Source: a bacterium
Lineage (GTDB): Bacteria; Chloroflexota; Dormibacteria; Aeolococcales; Bog-877
Assembly: GCA_021802045.1 (NCBI GenBank)
Contig: JAKABB010000007.1
Coordinates: 1 to 54,021, forward strand
Direction: 5' to 3'
Length of the DNA: 54,021 nucleotides
Shown: piece after piece, positions 43,304 to 52,123 of the stretch
Layout of the letters: the number at the start of each line of letters is the position of its first letter
Numbering within the stretch: position 1 is the first letter of the stretch
Program-made: the position numbers and the translations under genes
Notes under the pieces: generated by a model
Databases searched by the model: none
The model's input: only the letters and a program-made list of their open reading frames with translations
What the model was told of the DNA's origin: nothing

Positions 43304-44083
43304 ATGGTCGGCTGGGCACACGAGGGGGACGAGCGCCCGCAGACCGGAGATCGTGGGGCAGTCGGGCCGGGCCGGGCCGGCGCCAGCCGGACCGCCGCCG
43401 CCACTGCTCAGCGCCGGTCGCCGGCCGGCGCGCAGCAGCAGTACCGGGCGGATCCCGGCGGCGCGGGCCCCCAGGACATCGGTGCGGTAGTTGTCCCCGA
43501 CGTGCCAGCACCCCTCGGGGGCGAGGCCCATCGCGCGCAGGGCGGCGCGGAAGATGCTGACGTCCGGCTTCTGGGATCCGGCCTGGGCCGAGGGGAGGAT
43601 GACCTCGAACGCGGACGCGAGGCCGTGCGCCTCGCACAGGGCATGAATGATGGTGGTGAAGTTGCTGATCACCCCAAGGCGGATCCCCCGGCGGCGCAGG
43701 GCCCCCAGGGTCGGGGCCGCGTCCGGGTAGGGCCGCCAGGCCGCCGGGTCCCAGAACGCCCGCGTCAGGCGGCTGGCGAGCTCCGCCTGGTGCCGCTGGA
43801 CGCCGAGCGCGAGCAGCAGCTCCGCGTTGTACTGGTCCCAGAAGCGGGCGGCCTCCTCCGGCGAGGTCTCGAAGGCGAGCCCAGCCCGGTCCGCCGCCAC
43901 GTAGAAGGTGCTGGCCACGCGCAGCGCGCCGCGCAGCCGGGCCCGAGGAGCCGGCACCCCCAGGCCGGTCAGGACGCGCGCGTAGTGGCCGGGGATGCTG
44001 GGGGTGATGTGCAGGAGGGTGTCGCCGAGGTCGAAGAAGACGGCCCGGGTCCCAGGACCCAGGCCATCCTCGTCAGGCGCCAC
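43301..44083 (-). CDS. HAD-superfamily hydrolase
   Basis: 260 aa from GTG at 44083, overlapping the glycosyltransferase by 11 bases. Motif I is VFFDLGDTLL (Asp18 nucleophile and Asp21), motif II is GVISNFTT, motif III is QKPDVSIF and motif IV is HVGDNYRTDVLGA. A helical cap lies between motifs I and II. Probably a sugar- or nucleotide-phosphate phosphatase. Linked to a GT4 enzyme, it could act on a glycosyl phosphate, but this is inference. Confidence 0.88.
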   Translation of the reverse strand: MAPDEDGLGPGTRAVFFDLGDTLLHITPSIPGHYARVLTGLGVPAPRARLRGALRVASTFYVAADRAGLAFETSPEEAARFWDQYNAELLLALGVQRHQAELASRLTRAFWDPAAWRPYPDAAPTLGALRRRGIRLGVISNFTTIIHALCEAHGLASAFEVILPSAQAGSQKPDVSIFRAALRAMGLAPEGCWHVGDNYRTDVLGARAAGIRPVLLLRAGRRPALSSGGGGPAGAGPARPDCPTISGLRALVPLVCPADH

Positions 44084-45365
44084 GCCCCGCGGCGACGGCG
44101 GCGGCCGGCTCCAGCCCGTACTCCCCGGCCAGGATGTCGACGGTCCGCTCCCAGGTGAAACCCTCGGCCCGCTGGCGCGCCGCCCGCTGCAGCCGGGAGC
44201 GGTCGGCCCGGCCGCCCACGGTGGCGGCGATGGCATCGGCGTAGGCCCTGGGGTCATGGCCCTCGACTAGGTGACCGGTCCGCCCCGGGACGACGATGTC
44301 CCGTAGCCCGCCGACGGCGGCGGCGACCACTGGGGTGCCGCAGGCCTGGGCCTCCAGGGCGACGAGGCCGAACGATTCGGTGTGGGACGGGACCACCACC
44401 ACGTCCGCCAGGGCGTACAGGAGGGCCAGGCGGTCCTGGCTGACGGCCCCCAGGAAGCTGATGCGCTCCTCGATGCCACGGCGGGCGGCCAGGGCCGCCA
44501 GCTCCCGCCGCTGCCCCACCCGGGCACCCTCGCTGCTGACGTCGCCGGCGAAGAGCCCGTGCACGCGCTCCCGGACCCCGGGCTCCCCGGACGCCGCCAG
44601 GCAGGCCACCGCCTCCACCAGGGTCTCCGGGCCCTTCAAGGGCTCGAGCCGCCCGGCGAACATCGCCACCAGCCGGTCGGAGAGCCCCAGGCGGAGGCGC
44701 AGGCTGGTGGTCTCCCGCGGCTGGAAGCGGACCAGGTCCACGCCCGGCGGCGCGAGCAGGCACTGGTCCGGGCGGGCCCCGTAGAGCCGGACCAGGTCAC
44801 TGGCCTCGGACCGGGTGTTGACCACCAGCCTGGCCCCGGCGGCGACGATCCGGTGCTCTCCGATGAGCCGCTCCGGGACATCGCCGTCGAAGCCGTGCTC
44901 CCGCTTCACGGCGACCAGGGTGTGGGCCGTGTGCAGCCACGGGACGGCCATCTCCCTCGCCAGGGCCTGGCCCGCGTCGCCGGTCAGCCAGTAGTGGCTG
45001 TGCACCGCCCGGTAGCGTCGGGGCCGGTGGGCGAGGTACGCCCGGACCGCGGCCAGGTAGGCGGCACGGACCCCCGGCAACTGGTGCTTGGGCAGGCGGC
45101 GCAGGGGGCCGGCCTCGAGGGCCACCACTCGGCCCCGCGGCCCGAGGGGCCGCTCCACGGGCTCCGCCTCTGAGATGCGGCGGACGAAGATGTCGGTCTC
45201 GACCCCGCGCGCCCCCAGCTCCTCACAGATGGCCCGGACGTAGACGTTGAGCCCGCCGTTCTCCCGCTGCCCGAGACGGGCCAGGGGCGAGGCGTGGAGG
45301 CTGAGGAAGGCGACCGCCGCCCGTTCCCCGTCCCAGTCGGGCACCGGACTAAGCGCCGCGCTCAT
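44073..45365 (-). CDS. GT4-family glycosyltransferase, MshA/sucrose-phosphate-synthase-like
   Basis: 430 aa from ATG at 45365. GT-B fold: the acceptor domain begins LSLHASPLARLGQRENGGLN, with HSHYWLTGDAGQALA near 120 and HTAHTLVAVKREH. The nucleotide-sugar domain has FAGRLEPLKGPETLVEAVA and the EX7E motif in HTESFGLVALEAQACGTPVV. The opening and GGLNVYV loop resemble D-inositol-3-phosphate glycosyltransferase MshA of mycothiol synthesis, but the other mycothiol genes are not here. The start overlaps the acyltransferase gene by 17 bases. Confidence 0.9.
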   Translation of the reverse strand: MSAALSPVPDWDGERAAVAFLSLHASPLARLGQRENGGLNVYVRAICEELGARGVETDIFVRRISEAEPVERPLGPRGRVVALEAGPLRRLPKHQLPGVRAAYLAAVRAYLAHRPRRYRAVHSHYWLTGDAGQALAREMAVPWLHTAHTLVAVKREHGFDGDVPERLIGEHRIVAAGARLVVNTRSEASDLVRLYGARPDQCLLAPPGVDLVRFQPRETTSLRLRLGLSDRLVAMFAGRLEPLKGPETLVEAVACLAASGEPGVRERVHGLFAGDVSSEGARVGQRRELAALAARRGIEERISFLGAVSQDRLALLYALADVVVVPSHTESFGLVALEAQACGTPVVAAAVGGLRDIVVPGRTGHLVEGHDPRAYADAIAATVGGRADRSRLQRAARQRAEGFTWERTVDILAGEYGLEPAAAVAAGRGA

Positions 45366-46416
45366 CCGCAGGGGTCGGGGTGGATCGGCTGACGCGCAGG
45401 TGGACCAGGGTCCGATCCCTGGCGCCGAGGTCGTACTTGTAGGGCTCGTCCCCGCGCAGGAAGTCGGCGCGGTCGCAGCCCTCGGCGATGGCCATGCGGA
45501 TCCCCTCGGCCACGCACAGCAGCCCCACCGACCACCGCGCCGCCGCCGGGTCGTAGCCGGAGTTGTAGAGCAGCCAGCCGCCCCCGAGGGTGAAACCCAA
45601 TGTGGCCGCGACCGCCCCGTCGCCCGTCTCGAGCAGGTGCAGGCGCAACCACCCGGCCGCGGCGAAGCGGGCCCCGACCAGGCGGAAGAAGCGCTCGATG
45701 TCGGCGGTCCAAAAGGCGGCCTTGCCGGGGGTGCTGAGGCGGTGCAGCTCGAAGAAGCGCTCCAGGGCCGGCTCCCAGCCGTCACGCGAGCAGTCGCGCA
45801 CCCGCCAGCCTGGGTGCTCGGCGTCGAGGCGGCGACGCTTGCGGCGCAGCTCGTGGCGGTCCTTCTTCGACAGCCGGGTCTGGACCCACTCTTCGAAGTC
45901 GGCGGCCAACGGGACCCAGGGGCTGACCGCCTCCGCCTCAGCCACGACCTGGCACTGCAGCCGGGGCCCCGCCTCCTGGATCGCCGTCGCCACCGCCCCG
46001 TCCTCCGGCACGAAGTGGAGATCGAGGACGGGGTTGGACAGGGAGGTGCCGTCGCCACCGACCGCCCCGGCCGCCAGCCAGCCCAGGCCGGCGGCGGCGA
46101 CCGCCGGGGCCCACTCGGTGGCGGCGAGGAAGCCCAGGTGATCGCTGAGATCGAGACCCCCGATCACCCGCAGCTGGTCTGGGGCCGCCGGGTCCACGTA
46201 CAGGGGCCAGAGACCGCGCAGCCGGCCTCCGTCCCACACCGCCAGTGACCGCAGGGCGTAGCCGGCGCCGAAGACCTCCCACCACATCGTCTGCCAGTCC
46301 CAGGTGAGGAAGGGGTTGACGGGCGCGTCGGCCTGCAGCGACATCCAGGCGTCCCGGAGCGCCATCAGGCGCGCGGGATCCTCGATCACCTCCGTCAGCA
46401 ACGCCGTGCCGGCCAC
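45349..46416 (-). CDS. CelD/BcsL-type acyltransferase (GNAT-like, PF13480)
   Basis: 355 aa. The N-terminal half has NPFLTWDWQTMWWEVFG and SDHLGFLAA; the C-terminal GNAT-like half has LSKKDRHELRRKRRRL, the FFELHRLSTPGKAAFW segment, and FLRGDEPYKYDLGARDRTLV, which is diagnostic for this family linked to polysaccharide and lipid biosynthesis. First gene of the minus-strand unit acyltransferase-GT4-HAD-(MerR-isochorismate synthase). TGGTAGAGT about 110 bases upstream on the same strand could be its promoter. Confidence 0.87.
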   Translation of the reverse strand: MAGTALLTEVIEDPARLMALRDAWMSLQADAPVNPFLTWDWQTMWWEVFGAGYALRSLAVWDGGRLRGLWPLYVDPAAPDQLRVIGGLDLSDHLGFLAATEWAPAVAAAGLGWLAAGAVGGDGTSLSNPVLDLHFVPEDGAVATAIQEAGPRLQCQVVAEAEAVSPWVPLAADFEEWVQTRLSKKDRHELRRKRRRLDAEHPGWRVRDCSRDGWEPALERFFELHRLSTPGKAAFWTADIERFFRLVGARFAAAGWLRLHLLETGDGAVAATLGFTLGGGWLLYNSGYDPAAARWSVGLLCVAEGIRMAIAEGCDRADFLRGDEPYKYDLGARDRTLVHLRVSRSTPTPADERGA

Positions 46417-46577
46417 CCGGGAGCCCTGGGCTGCCCCACACGGCGCGTTACCGCATGCCGCGATCGTCCTTGTCCTCTACCGGGGCCGCATCCGCGCGGC
46501 GCTTCACACCGCAGCTAGCCTGCCCACTCTACCATCGGCGGCGCAGCTGCTCGATCGCCGTCCCCAAGGGAATCCCC

Positions 46578-47738
46578 GTGCCCCCCCCCCCCCCCCCTTC
46601 CATCCTGCTGTGGATCGCCGACACCGGCGGCGGCCACCGGGCCGCCGCCGCCGCGGTGGCCGCCGCCATCGAGGCCGCCGCTGGGGACACGGTGTCGGTC
46701 GTCACGCGCAGCCCTGGTCCGGAGACCGGCTGGTCCCTCAGCCGCGCGCCCGCGGCCCTCTACGGCCCCCTGGTGCGGCTGGCACCGGCCCTGTGGGGCG
46801 CCGGCTTCCACCTCACCGACCGTCGGGCCGGGGGCTGGGCCCTTGGAGCCGCGACCCGCCGTGCCCTCTCCGGAGCCCTGGCCAGCGAGCTGGCCCGCCT
46901 GCAGCCGGCGGCGGCCGTCTCCCTCCATCCCCTCCTGGTCGCCCCGCTGGCCACCGCCGCCCGCCGGGCGGCCTGGCCTGGCAGACGGGCCACGGTGGTC
47001 ACCGACCTGGTCCGGGTCCACCGCTCCTGGGTCTCGGCCCCGGTCGACCTGCTCTGCGTCCCCTCCGCCGCCGCGGCCGCCGAGTGCCGACGCCACCGCG
47101 CCCTTCCGGAGGCGGTGGAGACCGGTCTGCCGATCGCGGCCCAGTTCTCCGCGACCCTGCCGCCCGAGGCTGAGGCCCGTCCGGCGCTGCGGCGCCGCCT
47201 CGGCCTCGACCCGGAGCGTTTCTGCGTCCTGCTGACCGGTGGCGGCGAGGGGGCGGGCCTGCGCGCCCAGACCGTCCGTGAGCTCGCCCGGGCCGGGCTG
47301 CCCATCCAGCTGGCCGTGGTGTGCGGCCGTAACCGGCGCCTGGAGGGGACGCTCCGGGCGGCAACCTTCCCGGTGCCGGTGCGCGTGGTGGGCTATGTCG
47401 ATGCGATGGCCGACTGGTTGCGGGCGGCGGACGTGGTCATCGGCAAGGCGGGGCCCGCCACCATCGCCGAGACGGCGGCGATGGAGCGTCCGCTCCTGTG
47501 CTCCGGGCACCTGCCCGGACAGGAGGGTCCGAACGTGGGCATGGCGGTCCGGGCCGGGTTCGCCCGGGCCACGCCGGGCCCGCGCGCGATGCTGGCGGCC
47601 GTCGCCGAGCTCAGTGTGGCGGGGAGCCCGGCCCTGGCGAGGATGGGGAGCGCAGCGCGGCGCTGGTCGCGTCCCGATGCCGCCGCCCGCGTCGCCGCCG
47701 AGCTGCTGGCCCTGGTCGGCACCACCGGGGCTGCCTGA
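46578..47738 (+). CDS. MGDG synthase/UgtP-like (GT28) glycosyltransferase with a C17 tract at the start
   Basis: 386 aa from GTG at 46578, chosen because the conserved N-terminal strand and glycine loop SILLWIADTGGGHRAAAAAV follow at once. Other blocks: VVTDLVRVHRSW, VLLTGGGEGAGLRAQTV and VVIGKAGPATIAETAAMERP with LLCSGHLPGQEGPN, which hold the donor-sugar site of this family. Members add glucose or galactose to diacylglycerol or related acceptors. Codons 2-7 are made of 17 consecutive C (46581-46597). A change of one base in that run would shift the frame immediately and stop expression. Confidence 0.85.
   Translation: MPPPPPPSILLWIADTGGGHRAAAAAVAAAIEAAAGDTVSVVTRSPGPETGWSLSRAPAALYGPLVRLAPALWGAGFHLTDRRAGGWALGAATRRALSGALASELARLQPAAAVSLHPLLVAPLATAARRAAWPGRRATVVTDLVRVHRSWVSAPVDLLCVPSAAAAAECRRHRALPEAVETGLPIAAQFSATLPPEAEARPALRRRLGLDPERFCVLLTGGGEGAGLRAQTVRELARAGLPIQLAVVCGRNRRLEGTLRAATFPVPVRVVGYVDAMADWLRAADVVIGKAGPATIAETAAMERPLLCSGHLPGQEGPNVGMAVRAGFARATPGPRAMLAAVAELSVAGSPALARMGSAARRWSRPDAAARVAAELLALVGTTGAA
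46581..46597 (+). repeat. Homopolymer of 17 C at the start of a glycosyltransferase gene
   Basis: It begins at the second codon (GTG then C17 then TTCC). It is by far the longest homopolymer seen in the window. Position and length are those of phase-variable contingency loci. In an assembled sequence the exact number of C is uncertain. Confidence 0.9.
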
Positions 47739-47741
47739 GCG

Positions 47742-48047
47742 CTACCGCCAGCTGGGGCCACCGGCCGGGTCCCCGACGAAGCGCAGGCGCCGGATGGGCG
47801 GTGGCCCGATCACCAGGTTGACGGCGTCGAGCACTGGCTGCACCTCCAGCTGGAGCTGGTGGGCGACCGCCGGGTGGGCGCAGGCGACCACCAGGACGCC
47901 CCCCTCCAGCCGCAGGGCCCGAACGTGGGGCCGCAGGAACTCCCCGCACACGTCCTCGAAGGCCCGGCAGGCCTGGGCCTCCCGGACGTGCCCCGCCACC
48001 CCCATGCGCCGCAGCACCCGGGGCAGGACGGAGTCGATGCCCTCCAC
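47742..48047 (-). CDS. DUF721 (DciA-like) protein
   Basis: 101 aa from GTG at 48047, 3 bases after the recF stop. The family core is present: DSVLPRVLRRMGVAGHVREA, AFEDVCGEFLRPHV and GVLVVACAHPAVAHQLQLEV. DciA-type DUF721 proteins help load the replicative helicase in bacteria without DnaC/DnaI, and the gene commonly follows recF in Actinomycetota-like origin regions. gyrB, often next, is absent here; the neighbour is the convergent glycosyltransferase. Confidence 0.87.
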   Translation of the reverse strand: MEGIDSVLPRVLRRMGVAGHVREAQACRAFEDVCGEFLRPHVRALRLEGGVLVVACAHPAVAHQLQLEVQPVLDAVNLVIGPPPIRRLRFVGDPAGGPSWR

Positions 48048-48050
48048 CCT

Positions 48051-49199
48051 TCAGGCCTCGCGGGGCCGCGCCTGTCCCCGCTCCACCACCAGCTGGTGGA
48101 GGGGGTGGACCGCCGCCGGGATCGCGCCCGCGGTGGTCAGCAGCGTCTGCAGCTCTCGGCCCTCCCCCGCCAGCAGGGCGGAGAGCCGCTCCTGACGGAG
48201 CGGGTCCAGCTCCGAGAAGACGTCATCGAGCAGGACGACCGGGGTGGTTCCCAACCGCTCCCGGATGACGCGAACCTCAGCCGCCTTCACGGCAAGGACG
48301 ATACCGCGCTGCTGTCCCTGGGAGGCGAAGGCCCTGGCGGACCGGCCGTCGAGGTCGAGGATGAGGTCGTCACGGTGAGGGCCGCACACGGTGATCCCGC
48401 GCAGTCGCTCCTCCTCGGCGGCGGCCTGCAGGGCCGCCCCCAGGACGTGGGCCGCGGTGCTGGGGTCGGCCAGTGCCTCCGGAGGCACCCCCTGGGTGGG
48501 TAGACCGGGCCGGTACCGGATCGCGATCGCGGTGGGCTCCCCCAGCTCCATGGCGGCGGCCGCCACCAAGGGCTGCATGGTCCCGACCAGGGCCGCCCGA
48601 GCCGCCATGACCGGCGCTCCGTGGTCGATGAGAGCGGCCGTCCAGACCGCCAGCGGGCGGGGCGCGAGTCCTGCGGCTCCCGACCCCCGCAGGAGGGCGT
48701 TGCGCTGCTCCAAGGCCCGCCGGTAGCGCAGGGCGGTCTCGGCGTAGGCCGGGTGGGCCTGGCTCAGGACGACGTCCAAGAGCCGGCGCCGTCCCTCCGG
48801 GGGGCCCTTGACCAGGGCGAGGTCCTCCGGCCAGAAGAGCACCACCGGGACCAGGCCCAGCACGGCGCGCGCCGAGCGGGTGGTGCCGTTCACGCAGTAG
48901 CGGCGCACCGCCCGCTCGGGGCTGGATGGGAGCCGGTCCAGGCGGCAGTCCACCTCCAGGGGCCCGGCGCCTCCGTCCGTCCAGCCGGTGACCCGGGCGG
49001 CCGGCGCCCCCCAGGCGATGCATTCCGCCAGGCTGCCCGCCCGCGGGGACCGGGTGAGGGCCAGGGTGGCGATCGCCTCCAGGAGGTTGGTCTTGCCCTG
49101 GCCGTTGCGCCCGACCACCACGGTCAGGCCGGGACCAAGCTCCAGGCGGGTGTCCTGGTGGTTGCGGAAGGCGAAGCAGCGCAGCTCGCGCAGGTGCAC
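48051..49199 (-). CDS. recF: DNA replication and repair protein RecF
   Basis: 382 aa from GTG. SMC-like ATPase: Walker A VGRNGQGKTNLLEAI (GRNGQGKT at 30-37), signature ASQGQQRGIVLAVK and Walker B VVLLDDVFSELDP. RecF helps load RecA at single-strand gaps. Follows dnaN by 26 bases in the conserved dnaA-dnaN-recF order. Confidence 0.96.
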   Translation of the reverse strand: MHLRELRCFAFRNHQDTRLELGPGLTVVVGRNGQGKTNLLEAIATLALTRSPRAGSLAECIAWGAPAARVTGWTDGGAGPLEVDCRLDRLPSSPERAVRRYCVNGTTRSARAVLGLVPVVLFWPEDLALVKGPPEGRRRLLDVVLSQAHPAYAETALRYRRALEQRNALLRGSGAAGLAPRPLAVWTAALIDHGAPVMAARAALVGTMQPLVAAAAMELGEPTAIAIRYRPGLPTQGVPPEALADPSTAAHVLGAALQAAAEEERLRGITVCGPHRDDLILDLDGRSARAFASQGQQRGIVLAVKAAEVRVIRERLGTTPVVLLDDVFSELDPLRQERLSALLAGEGRELQTLLTTAGAIPAAVHPLHQLVVERGQARPREA

Positions 49200-49225
49200 G
49201 GGGTCCGCCCCTGCGACCTACCCGG

Positions 49226-50356
49226 TCAGAGGGCCACCCGCACCGGCATGATCACGTAGCGGTAGCTGTCGTCCCCGACCGGACGGATCAGGCCGGGGGC
49301 CAACGAGCCATTGCACACCAACTCGACCTCCTCCGTCTGCAGGATCTGGAGCACGTCCAGCAGGTAGCGGGCATTGAAGGCTATGGCCAGCTGCTCTCCC
49401 TCGATCGTGGCCGGCAGGGTGGCGACGTTGTCCCCCACCTCGTTGGTGTTGGCGGAGAGGGTGAGCATCCCGGGCTCGGAGCGGATCTTGACCACGTTGG
49501 CGGCGTCCCGCGCGAAGAGGGCCACCACCCGGGCGGTCCGCAGGAACTCCTTGGTGTTGGTGCGGATCGTGGTCTGGGCGGTTTCCGGGACCACTTTGCT
49601 GTAGTTGGGGTAGGTGCCCTCCAGGAGGCGCGTGCTCACCTCGTACCCCGAAAGTTCGAAGGTGATATGGGTCCCGTTCTGGGCCAGCTTGAGGGAGAGC
49701 GGGCCTGCTCCGTCGCCCCCCTGGGGACGGAGGAGGCGGCCGAGCTCGGCCAGCGCTCTTGCGGGCACTATGAAGCTGGTCCTGGTCCCGGCCTCGGTCT
49801 CCGGGACCCCCATCTGACGGATCGCCAAGCGGTGGCCGTCGGTGGCGACCATGGTCAGGACCGAGTCGGCGACCTCGGTGAGGACCCCGGTGTAGAGGGG
49901 TCGGCCCTCGTCGACGCTGGCGGCGACCACGGTCTGCTCCGTCGCGGTGGCGAAGGCGATGGGGTCCAAGACGACCCGTGAGCCACCCTGGAGCACGGGC
50001 AGCTGGGGGAACTCGGCGGCGTCGATGCCCCGGATGTGGGCGGTGTAGGGCCCACTGCGCAGGGCCACGGTCTGGCTGCTGGCGTCGAGCTCCCACTCCA
50101 TGGTCCCGTCCGGGAGCGCTGCCACGAACTCGCTGAGGATCTTGGCCGGGAGGGTGATGCTGCCGGGCTCGTCGATCTTCGCCGGCAGGTGGTGCCGGAT
50201 GGTGAGGTCCAAGTTGGTGGCCAGGAGGTGCACCGCTCCGTCCCGGGCCTCGATGAGCACGTTGCTGAGGATGGGCAGCGTCGCCCGCGGTGAGACCGCG
50301 CGGGTGACGGCACCGAGACCGGCGGCGAACTGGTGGGCTGAGAGGGAGCACCTCAT
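49226..50356 (-). CDS. dnaN: DNA polymerase III beta clamp
   Basis: 376 aa from ATG at 50356; the frame continues upstream but homology starts with MRCSLSAHQFAAGLGAVTRA. Three clamp domains are recognisable (LPILSNVLIEARDG, FIVPARALAELGRLL, FNARYLLDVLQIL), and the C-terminus ends YRYVIMPVRVAL, close to the usual MPMRL ending that lines the clamp pocket. Normal length. Confidence 0.96.
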   Translation of the reverse strand: MRCSLSAHQFAAGLGAVTRAVSPRATLPILSNVLIEARDGAVHLLATNLDLTIRHHLPAKIDEPGSITLPAKILSEFVAALPDGTMEWELDASSQTVALRSGPYTAHIRGIDAAEFPQLPVLQGGSRVVLDPIAFATATEQTVVAASVDEGRPLYTGVLTEVADSVLTMVATDGHRLAIRQMGVPETEAGTRTSFIVPARALAELGRLLRPQGGDGAGPLSLKLAQNGTHITFELSGYEVSTRLLEGTYPNYSKVVPETAQTTIRTNTKEFLRTARVVALFARDAANVVKIRSEPGMLTLSANTNEVGDNVATLPATIEGEQLAIAFNARYLLDVLQILQTEEVELVCNGSLAPGLIRPVGDDSYRYVIMPVRVAL

Positions 50357-50659
50357 GGGGTGGGACTCCGTGGGGCCGGACCCGGCGGTGGCGTCAGCGA
50401 CCGTGGGTGAGGGCGGTTGTGAACAGGCAGGAATGGTATGACCTGGGCCTGTATTCATTGGTCATCGTCATAGGGCGGGGGAGACTGGGGAAAACCCCGG
50501 TCGGGGAGATCAATGACGGGTTGGATAACCTGTGTGCAAGCTTGGCCTCTCCACGGTGAGACGGGGGATGTCGTTGGGAGTTGGTGCTTGTCCACAACCA
50601 TCAGCGCCAGTACCCCCAGGGGCAGTGGACATCGCCGACGCGAGGACCGGCCGGGACCG
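50357..50659. other. dnaA-dnaN intergenic region with DnaA-box-like sites, candidate oriC part
   Basis: 303 bases without a gene and locally richer in A/T. TTGTCCACA (50588-50596) is a consensus-type DnaA box. TTGTGAACA (50417-50425) and minus-strand TTATCCAAC (50528-50520) are weaker matches. In many Actinomycetota-like genomes oriC lies between dnaA and dnaN. It must also carry the dnaN promoter. Confidence 0.55.
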
Positions 50660-52123
50660 TCAAGCGTAGAGCACCTCCCGAAGCCGGGTCAGGTCGGCCA
50701 GGATGCGGGGGTCCTCCTTGGCCTCGGTGTTGATCTTCTCGTAGGAGTGGAGGACGGTCGTGTGGTCCCGGTCCCCGAAGGCGTGGCCGATGGCGGGCAG
50801 GCTCATGGCGATCTCCTCCCGGATCAGGTACATCGCCACCTGCCGCGGGAGCACGATGTGCTTGTCGCGGCGCTTGCCCTTCATCTCCTCCACGCTGATG
50901 CCGTAGTAGCCGGCGACCGTCTCCTGGATGGTCTCCACGGAGAGGGGACGGACGTCGGCGGTGGGGATGATGTCGTGGAGGATCCTGGCGACCTGCTCGA
51001 CGTCCAGGGGCTCCCCGGGGTTGAGGGAGGCGTGGGCCAAGACCCGGATCAGAGCCCCCTCCAGCTCGCGGATGTTCTTTTGGATCTTGTGGGCGATGAA
51101 GGAGAGGACCTCCTCGGTGAGAAGGGAGTGGTGGCCGGGGAGCTTGCTCCGCAGGATCGCCAGGCGGGTTTCGAAGTCCGGGGGTTGGATGTCGGCCATC
51201 AGGCCACCCTCGAACCGGGTCCGCAGCCGATCCTCCAGGGTCGGAATCTCCCGTGGGGGCCGGTCGCTGCTGATCACCACCTGCCGGTTGACCTGGTGCA
51301 GGGCGTTGAAGGTGTGGAAGAACTCCTCCTGGGTTCGGTCCTTGCCCGCCAGGAACTGGATGTCGTCGACCAGGAGGACGTCCACGGTCCGGTAGCGGTT
51401 GCGGAACTCCGCCATCCGGTTCTCCTGGATGGACAGGATCATCTGGTTGAGGAAGTTCTCGGAGGTGACGTAGGCCACCCGGCAGCGGCGCTCGCGCCAG
51501 ACTGCGTGGCCGATGGCGTGCATCAGGTGGGTCTTGCCCAAGCCCACCCCACCGTAGAGGAAAAGGGGGTTGTAGGCCCGGCCCGGGGCCTCGCTGACCG
51601 CACGGCAGGCGGCGTGGGCGAAGTGGGAACTGTTCCCGACCACGAAGGCCGAGAAGGTGTACCGGGGATTGAGGGTGCCCACCACGATGGAGGCTTCCGC
51701 CTCGGAGGGGGGGGCCAGCCCCTCCGCTGGGGCCGGGGAGGGCGCCTGGGGGACCCAGGCGGCCAGTCCCTCGGGTTCGGCTTCCTCGCCGGGGACCAGC
51801 GTTGCGGCCGAGCCCTGCGGGCCCATCACCGTCAGATCCAGCTCCACCTCGCGGGACAGGATGGCGGCCAGGGTCTCGCGGATGAGCGGGGCGTAGCGCT
51901 CGCCGATCCAGTCCCGCGCGAGCTCGGTGGGGACGCCCAGCTGCACCCGACCGGTCTCCTCGTCCACCGTGAGCAGCCTGGCGTTCTTGATCCAGGCTTC
52001 GTACCCGGGTCGGCTGACCTGGAAGCGCAACTCCTCCTGAGCCGCGGCCCACACCTGGTCAGCGGTCACGCGGGGGGGCCGGTCCGGGACCGCGCGAAGT
52101 GGCTGCCCGGAAGGCAGGCGCAC
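50660..52123 (-). CDS. dnaA: Chromosomal replication initiator DnaA
   Basis: 487 aa from GTG at 52123; GTG at 52069 (before [16 protein letters not shown]) is an alternative. Domain I (about 20-100), a short Pro/Ala-rich domain II (105-145), the AAA+ domain with Walker A GGVGLGKT (191-198), Walker [11 protein letters not shown] (249-258) and sensor residues in SSDRPP, and domain IV with the DnaA-box-binding signature [15 protein letters not shown] near the C-terminus. A DnaA box upstream (52146) suggests autoregulation. Confidence 0.97.

Follow-up and report, generated by a model that had tools for sequence, protein, structure and literature searches.

A C17 tract directly after the start codon of a core glycolipid-type glycosyltransferase gene in a Dormibacterota genome: a candidate slippage-grown frameshift hot spot

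A gene for a GT28/MGDG-synthase-type glycosyltransferase in a Dormibacterota draft genome opens with a GTG codon that runs directly into 17 consecutive cytosines. We propose, with a probability of roughly one half, that this is a genuine tract, peculiar to this lineage, which has grown by slippage in a dispensable tail at the N-terminus of a core gene and which works like a contingency locus. As read from the sequence, the locus is built like a simple-sequence contingency locus, both in tract length and in position relative to the reading frame. We do not claim selection for switching: if the C17 is real, the locus would behave as a contingency locus whether or not it had been selected to do so. 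The window analyzed, i.e. the whole 54,021-nucleotide stretch of DNA, is one contig (C198) of a MAG (3.01 Mb in 206 contigs, 86% complete), from whose assembly alone the tract length is taken; the organism is the sole member of its genus among the genomes compared. A preliminary description of the locus had implied a Gram-positive-type (actinobacterial) host, but the relatives of the protein place the organism in the Dormibacterota.

Direct reading gives the locus as ...CCCCAAGGGAATCCCC-GTG-C17-TTCCATCCTGCTGTGG..., with the GTG at 46578-46580 and the C17 at 46581-46597 of the forward strand, closed by TTCC at 46598-46601. The run supplies codons 2-7, filling five CCC triplets and all but the last base of a CCT, i.e. 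the codons from the start are GTG, CCC x5, CCT, TCC, ATC, CTG, CTG and TGG (M-P6-S-I-L-L-W). Translation then continues through the first conserved strand and glycine-rich loop (ILLWIADTGGGHR, 46602-46640, forward strand), which the alignment of homologues places directly after the run (M-P6-S-I-L-L-W-I-A-D-T-G-G-G-H). A Shine-Dalgarno-like AAGGGA precedes the start at 46566-46571. Thus, the C17 lies exactly where it had been described, right after the start codon, and the claim of a GTG start with the fold close behind agrees with the upstream AAGGGA and with a conserved fold that begins two residues past the run.

The GTG is the only ATG, GTG or TTG between a promoter-like motif and the C17. 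A start downstream of the run was rejected because none of these codons recurs until the in-frame GTG at codon 27, already beyond the conserved glycine loop, leaving no alternative start there; an in-frame ATG at 46455 was rejected because it lies upstream of the conserved promoter-like motif. This intergenic motif (CTCTACCATC, 46527-46536), conserved in the family as CTYTACCATC in the divergent GNAT/GT28 intergenic region of five genomes (the window and L077-L080), fits a -10 element; read in reverse as GATGGTARAG(T), it would serve the GNAT-GT4 operon on the other strand well as an extended -10 (TGnTAnnnT). We infer a promoter role for it. A tract-dependent RNA structure at the start was also considered and rejected, the predicted fold being identical for C14 to C20.

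The gene (46578-47738, forward strand) encodes a 386-residue protein which matches the Pfam families MGDG_synth (6.4e-11, 43.1 bits against a gathering score of 25) and Glyco_tran_28_C (7.6e-10, 39.5 bits against 22). A profile of its family matches Arabidopsis MGDG synthase 1 (MGD1, 4wyi) over the full length with 1.2e-93 and the processive diacylglycerol glucosyltransferase structure 9wde with 1.9e-47, and the glycine-rich loop and the C-terminal GT28 domain of these enzymes are conserved in the focal protein. By these domain and profile matches it is a GT28/MGDG-synthase-type glycosyltransferase, which bears out the earlier assignment as a glycolipid glycosyltransferase. It differs from diglucosyl-diacylglycerol synthase in falling below the equivalog cut-off: the NCBIfam model for UgtP/YpfP (NF010135) gives 85.1 bits against 500.

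Homologues were recovered from 58 of the 61 genomes searched, nearly always as one full-length copy, and from all 22 relatives that are at least 90% complete. In draft genomes, two homologues are split into two matches (G042:C31:270-1214 and G031:C60:10099-10988) and one carries a stop codon (G002:C245:2697-3821), each through either assembly error or real decay. The neighborhood is likewise stable. Upstream on the minus strand lie a divergent GNAT gene (Acetyltransf_6 by Pfam, 45349-46416), syntenic in relatives, and adjoining it a GT4 glycosyltransferase gene (44073-45344), conserved at 63-68% in the family, whose best NCBIfam model is MshA (mycothiol D-inositol-3-phosphate glycosyltransferase) with 371.6 bits, under its cut-off of 462.5. 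Downstream, the gene converges on a DUF721/dciA-recF-dnaN-dnaA block (47742-52123, minus strand). The two nearest relatives, G003 and G007, show the same convergence and keep the order isochorismate synthase - MerR - HAD - GT4 - GNAT, divergent from the glycosyltransferase gene; G001 and G005 share a shorter part of this order over the regions compared. On this comparative evidence the gene is a core, single-copy, oriC-proximal one, with no island of variable surface genes around it, and the likening to the variable surface-glycan genes of pathogen switches is not supported by its presence in 22 of 22 genomes, its position near oriC and its conserved synteny.

What precedes the first conserved strand is far less constant. 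In G003 and G007 the start is likewise a GTG in the corresponding position, behind a strong GGGAGG Shine-Dalgarno sequence, and the tails have nine residues each (VSVSGAPPP-LLVW and VATSRPSAP-VLIW), against eight in the focal protein (VPPPPPPS-ILLW); more distant homologues often have just 1-4 residues there. Since the homologous tails vary in both length and sequence, the tail is unconstrained and codons 2-8 are free to drift. Conserved mixed proline codons, named in the preliminary description as evidence against a repeat tract, were not found: the homologous tails are unrelated to one another, and G003, the closest relative, alone has mixed codons (CCA CCG CCG). By the alignment, the run takes the place of tail sequence and leaves the conserved sequence uninterrupted. 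The conserved flanks on both sides, together with the tail of eight residues against nine, argue that the run joins no unrelated sequence; a misassembly fusing unrelated flanks was thus ruled out by synteny and by spacing, with the TACCATC motif upstream and the fold downstream.

Base composition does not account for the tract. In the window (74% GC) the next longest C or G run is 8, i.e. 9 bases below the C17, and a first-order chain predicts 0.0013 C-runs of at least 17 per window, or 0.07 per 3 Mb; these figures err on the high side, since after five C's the chance of another falls to 0.23. Across the draft genome (3.0 Mb) there are 35 C/G runs of 9, eight of 10, three of 11 and then just three of 14 or more: a single 14, a run of at least 16 that is cut by a contig end, and the C17. 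When the ratio of about 0.24 from 9 to 10 to 11 is extended (our own arithmetic), about 5e-4 runs of at least 17 are expected. The three longest runs lie outside the falling length tail of the genome, and chance by composition was ruled out as the source of the C17 by the window and genome counts.

A technical origin would make the C17 polymerase stutter or a consensus error from a high-GC short-read metagenome, standing for a tract that is in truth shorter, interrupted or otherwise different in length. We regard this as unlikely. In its favor, runs of C13 or longer occur 15 times in 9 of 110 genomes of the class, and of these 15, 6 are no more than about 260 nt away from a contig end and 2 are beside an N gap, so that many long C/G runs in the MAGs of this class are suspect; the focal genome's own run of at least 16, at a contig edge, is of this kind. 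One MAG (G102) has runs of 34 (L167), 16 (L172) and 21 (L175), all near contig ends, which are probably assembly products and call for caution in homopolymer surveys of MAGs. Poly-G artefacts occur with two-color sequencers. Against a technical origin, the C17 sits 7.4 kb inside its 54 kb contig, away from the ends, with gene and promoter motif flanking it at the expected spacing and the frame intact; nor do poly-G artefacts at read ends reach across from one unique flank to the other.

The length of the tract decides the frame. Among lengths from C14 to C21, only C14, C17 and C20 (a C count that leaves remainder 2 on division by 3) are ON, the others giving wrong-frame products of 197-219 residues. 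The gene is thus ON as assembled, with the C17 in frame with all 386 residues, as had been claimed, where a random length would be ON one time in three. The further claim that gain or loss of a single C breaks the gene also stands, every change by other than a multiple of three yielding a nonsense product in the frame table. In the mechanism we favor, replication slippage would have enlarged the C tract inside the dispensable tail, in the focal lineage only, and slipped-strand mispairing would go on adding and removing cytosines, making the site a local frameshift hot spot; lengths with remainder 2 would be ON and the others would probably lose function with the 197-219-residue product. As the gene is ON at remainder-2 lengths alone, a population should hold an OFF minority, and as every near-complete relative has the gene, such OFF cells may be strongly selected against. 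The C17 exceeds the cut-offs used for switch candidates, 7 or more G/C in the PhasomeIt analysis of Campylobacter phasomes (PMC6321876) and more than 8 bases in Bordetella (PMC1891110), and at phase-variable loci the mutation rate of repeat tracts is 100-10,000 times that of the genome at large (PMC11868660). Given these cut-offs, slippage around 17 is very likely if the C17 is real, even with MutS and MutL homologues present in the genome. Mismatch repair formed by these homologues, if working, would slow it; their presence led us to reject loss of mismatch repair as the cause of the C17.

A stronger reading is that of an evolved phase-variation switch, in which slippage of the C17 is kept by selection to toggle a membrane glycolipid, e.g. 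against phages, antimicrobials or envelope stress. Its attractions are a tract beside a single usable start codon, where a frameshift is maximally disruptive, and the envelope-lipid function suggested for the glycosyltransferase by domain and profile matches. Its difficulties are evolutionary. In the 90 nt that lead up to the glycine loop, no other homologue has a C/G run of more than 8 (108 loci, some counted twice between collections), and the two nearest relatives, at 49% identity, do not retain the tract at the same gene; the cross-genome comparison of run lengths that had been called for thus found the tract confined to the focal genome and absent from the other homologues examined. The gene is also core and single-copy in all 22 near-complete genomes. 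A search for RTG followed by C10 across 110 genomes of the class gave five matches in four genomes, with the focal one alone at a recognizable gene start, and a lineage-wide program of poly-C at gene starts was rejected on this count of one in five. Ten-base runs near the start are found elsewhere in the focal genome: a PIG-L (GlcNAc-PI de-N-acetylase) gene (L041:2030-2746, G000:C34; MSGTDPPPFHRAMVVVAHPDD), preceded by AGGAG, has a C10 at codons 5-8, and aroE (shikimate dehydrogenase; L063:1148-2008, minus strand, G000:C112), a housekeeping gene, has a G10 at its codons 5-8. These two cases suggest that the unconstrained tail of any gene gathers runs in a GC-rich genome. Three of about nine intragenic runs of at least 10 lie within 15 nt of a start, to which little weight attaches, the gene calls being crude and tail drift predicting the same.

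The only other run of at least 13 in the focal genome that is away from a contig edge is a G14 (L032:4034-4047, G000:C92:24533-24546), which precedes a GntR/FCD regulator gene by 55-68 nt. With a TGATAAT -10-like element following 12 nt after its end, it would fill the -35 region, making it a candidate promoter-type length switch, 0.8 kb from the contig end. This too is a textbook switch position, and it is the one hint in favor of an evolved switch. Taken together, the evolutionary tests available from these genomes (whether relatives keep the tract, whether the gene is dispensable, whether there is a wider program of such tracts) do not favor an evolved switch, which is not supported and which we rate as rather unlikely. 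Its extension to the Dormibacterota, with slippage of long C/G tracts acting as a contingency switch on envelope lipids and on regulators (the codon-2 C17 of the MGDG-synthase-type gene and the G14 upstream of GntR), we hold to be quite doubtful.

The tract might also act in translation, GTG-CCC-C with six prolines making a start that is prone to +1 shifts or stalling, with output that is low or dependent on EF-P or m1G37-tRNA. Of the positions tested in E. coli, CCC-C beside the start codon shifts to +1 most readily, and suppression for the GGG isoacceptor needs EF-P (PMC6335274). The focal gene has CCC directly after its GTG and six prolines in a row, so that some frame loss may also arise in translation; but neither the prolines nor the CCC-C are conserved in homologues, and as the explanation of the tract a translational effect is improbable.

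The slippage-grown hot spot remains our preferred reading. Should the run vary in reads, it would be a case in which a homopolymer switches a core glycolipid enzyme of the Dormibacterota, for which a literature search found no report of phase variation; were the contingency-switch reading true, phase variation would extend to a soil phylum that is uncultured and has no known host. According to a 2025 review, soil is a gap that has yet to be filled (PMC11868660). Should the run be invariant, it would caution that long C/G runs in GC-rich MAGs arise in unconstrained N-terminal tails or by assembly, and that anatomy alone is no ground for calling such runs switches.

The preliminary description had called poly-C/G switches little described in free-living high-GC Gram-positive-type bacteria; among high-GC bacteria, phase variation through homopolymers is known from Bordetella (PMC1891110) and M. 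tuberculosis (PMC11898584). In three Bordetella species, 69 homopolymeric tracts occur above chance, e.g. in tcfA, bapC, BP3651 and the fim genes (PMC1891110). As with the C17, the setting is a high-GC genome with C/G tracts beyond composition, some in coding sequence where an indel shifts the frame; the Bordetella tracts, however, vary between strains and within single cultures, whereas the C17 is known from one assembly and lies in a glycolipid glycosyltransferase gene that is core, in a bacterium that is uncultured and has no known host. In Campylobacter, the flagellin-glycan gene Cj1295 is phase-variable through poly-G/C (PMC3068675), and like the focal gene it is a glycan gene that contains a poly-G/C tract by which an ON/OFF frame is predicted; there, many tracts are spread over accessory surface-glycan genes, whereas the focal genome has three runs of at least 14 and the affected gene is core. 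Finally, in M. tuberculosis, homopolymeric-tract phase variants are reported to be ESX-1-associated (PMC11898584) or to affect the glycerol kinase gene glpK (PMC6667613). It belongs to another phylum and its phase variation has been shown experimentally; the parallel with the focal locus is a high-GC genome in which frameshifting homopolymers reach metabolic or envelope genes beyond the classic surface antigens.
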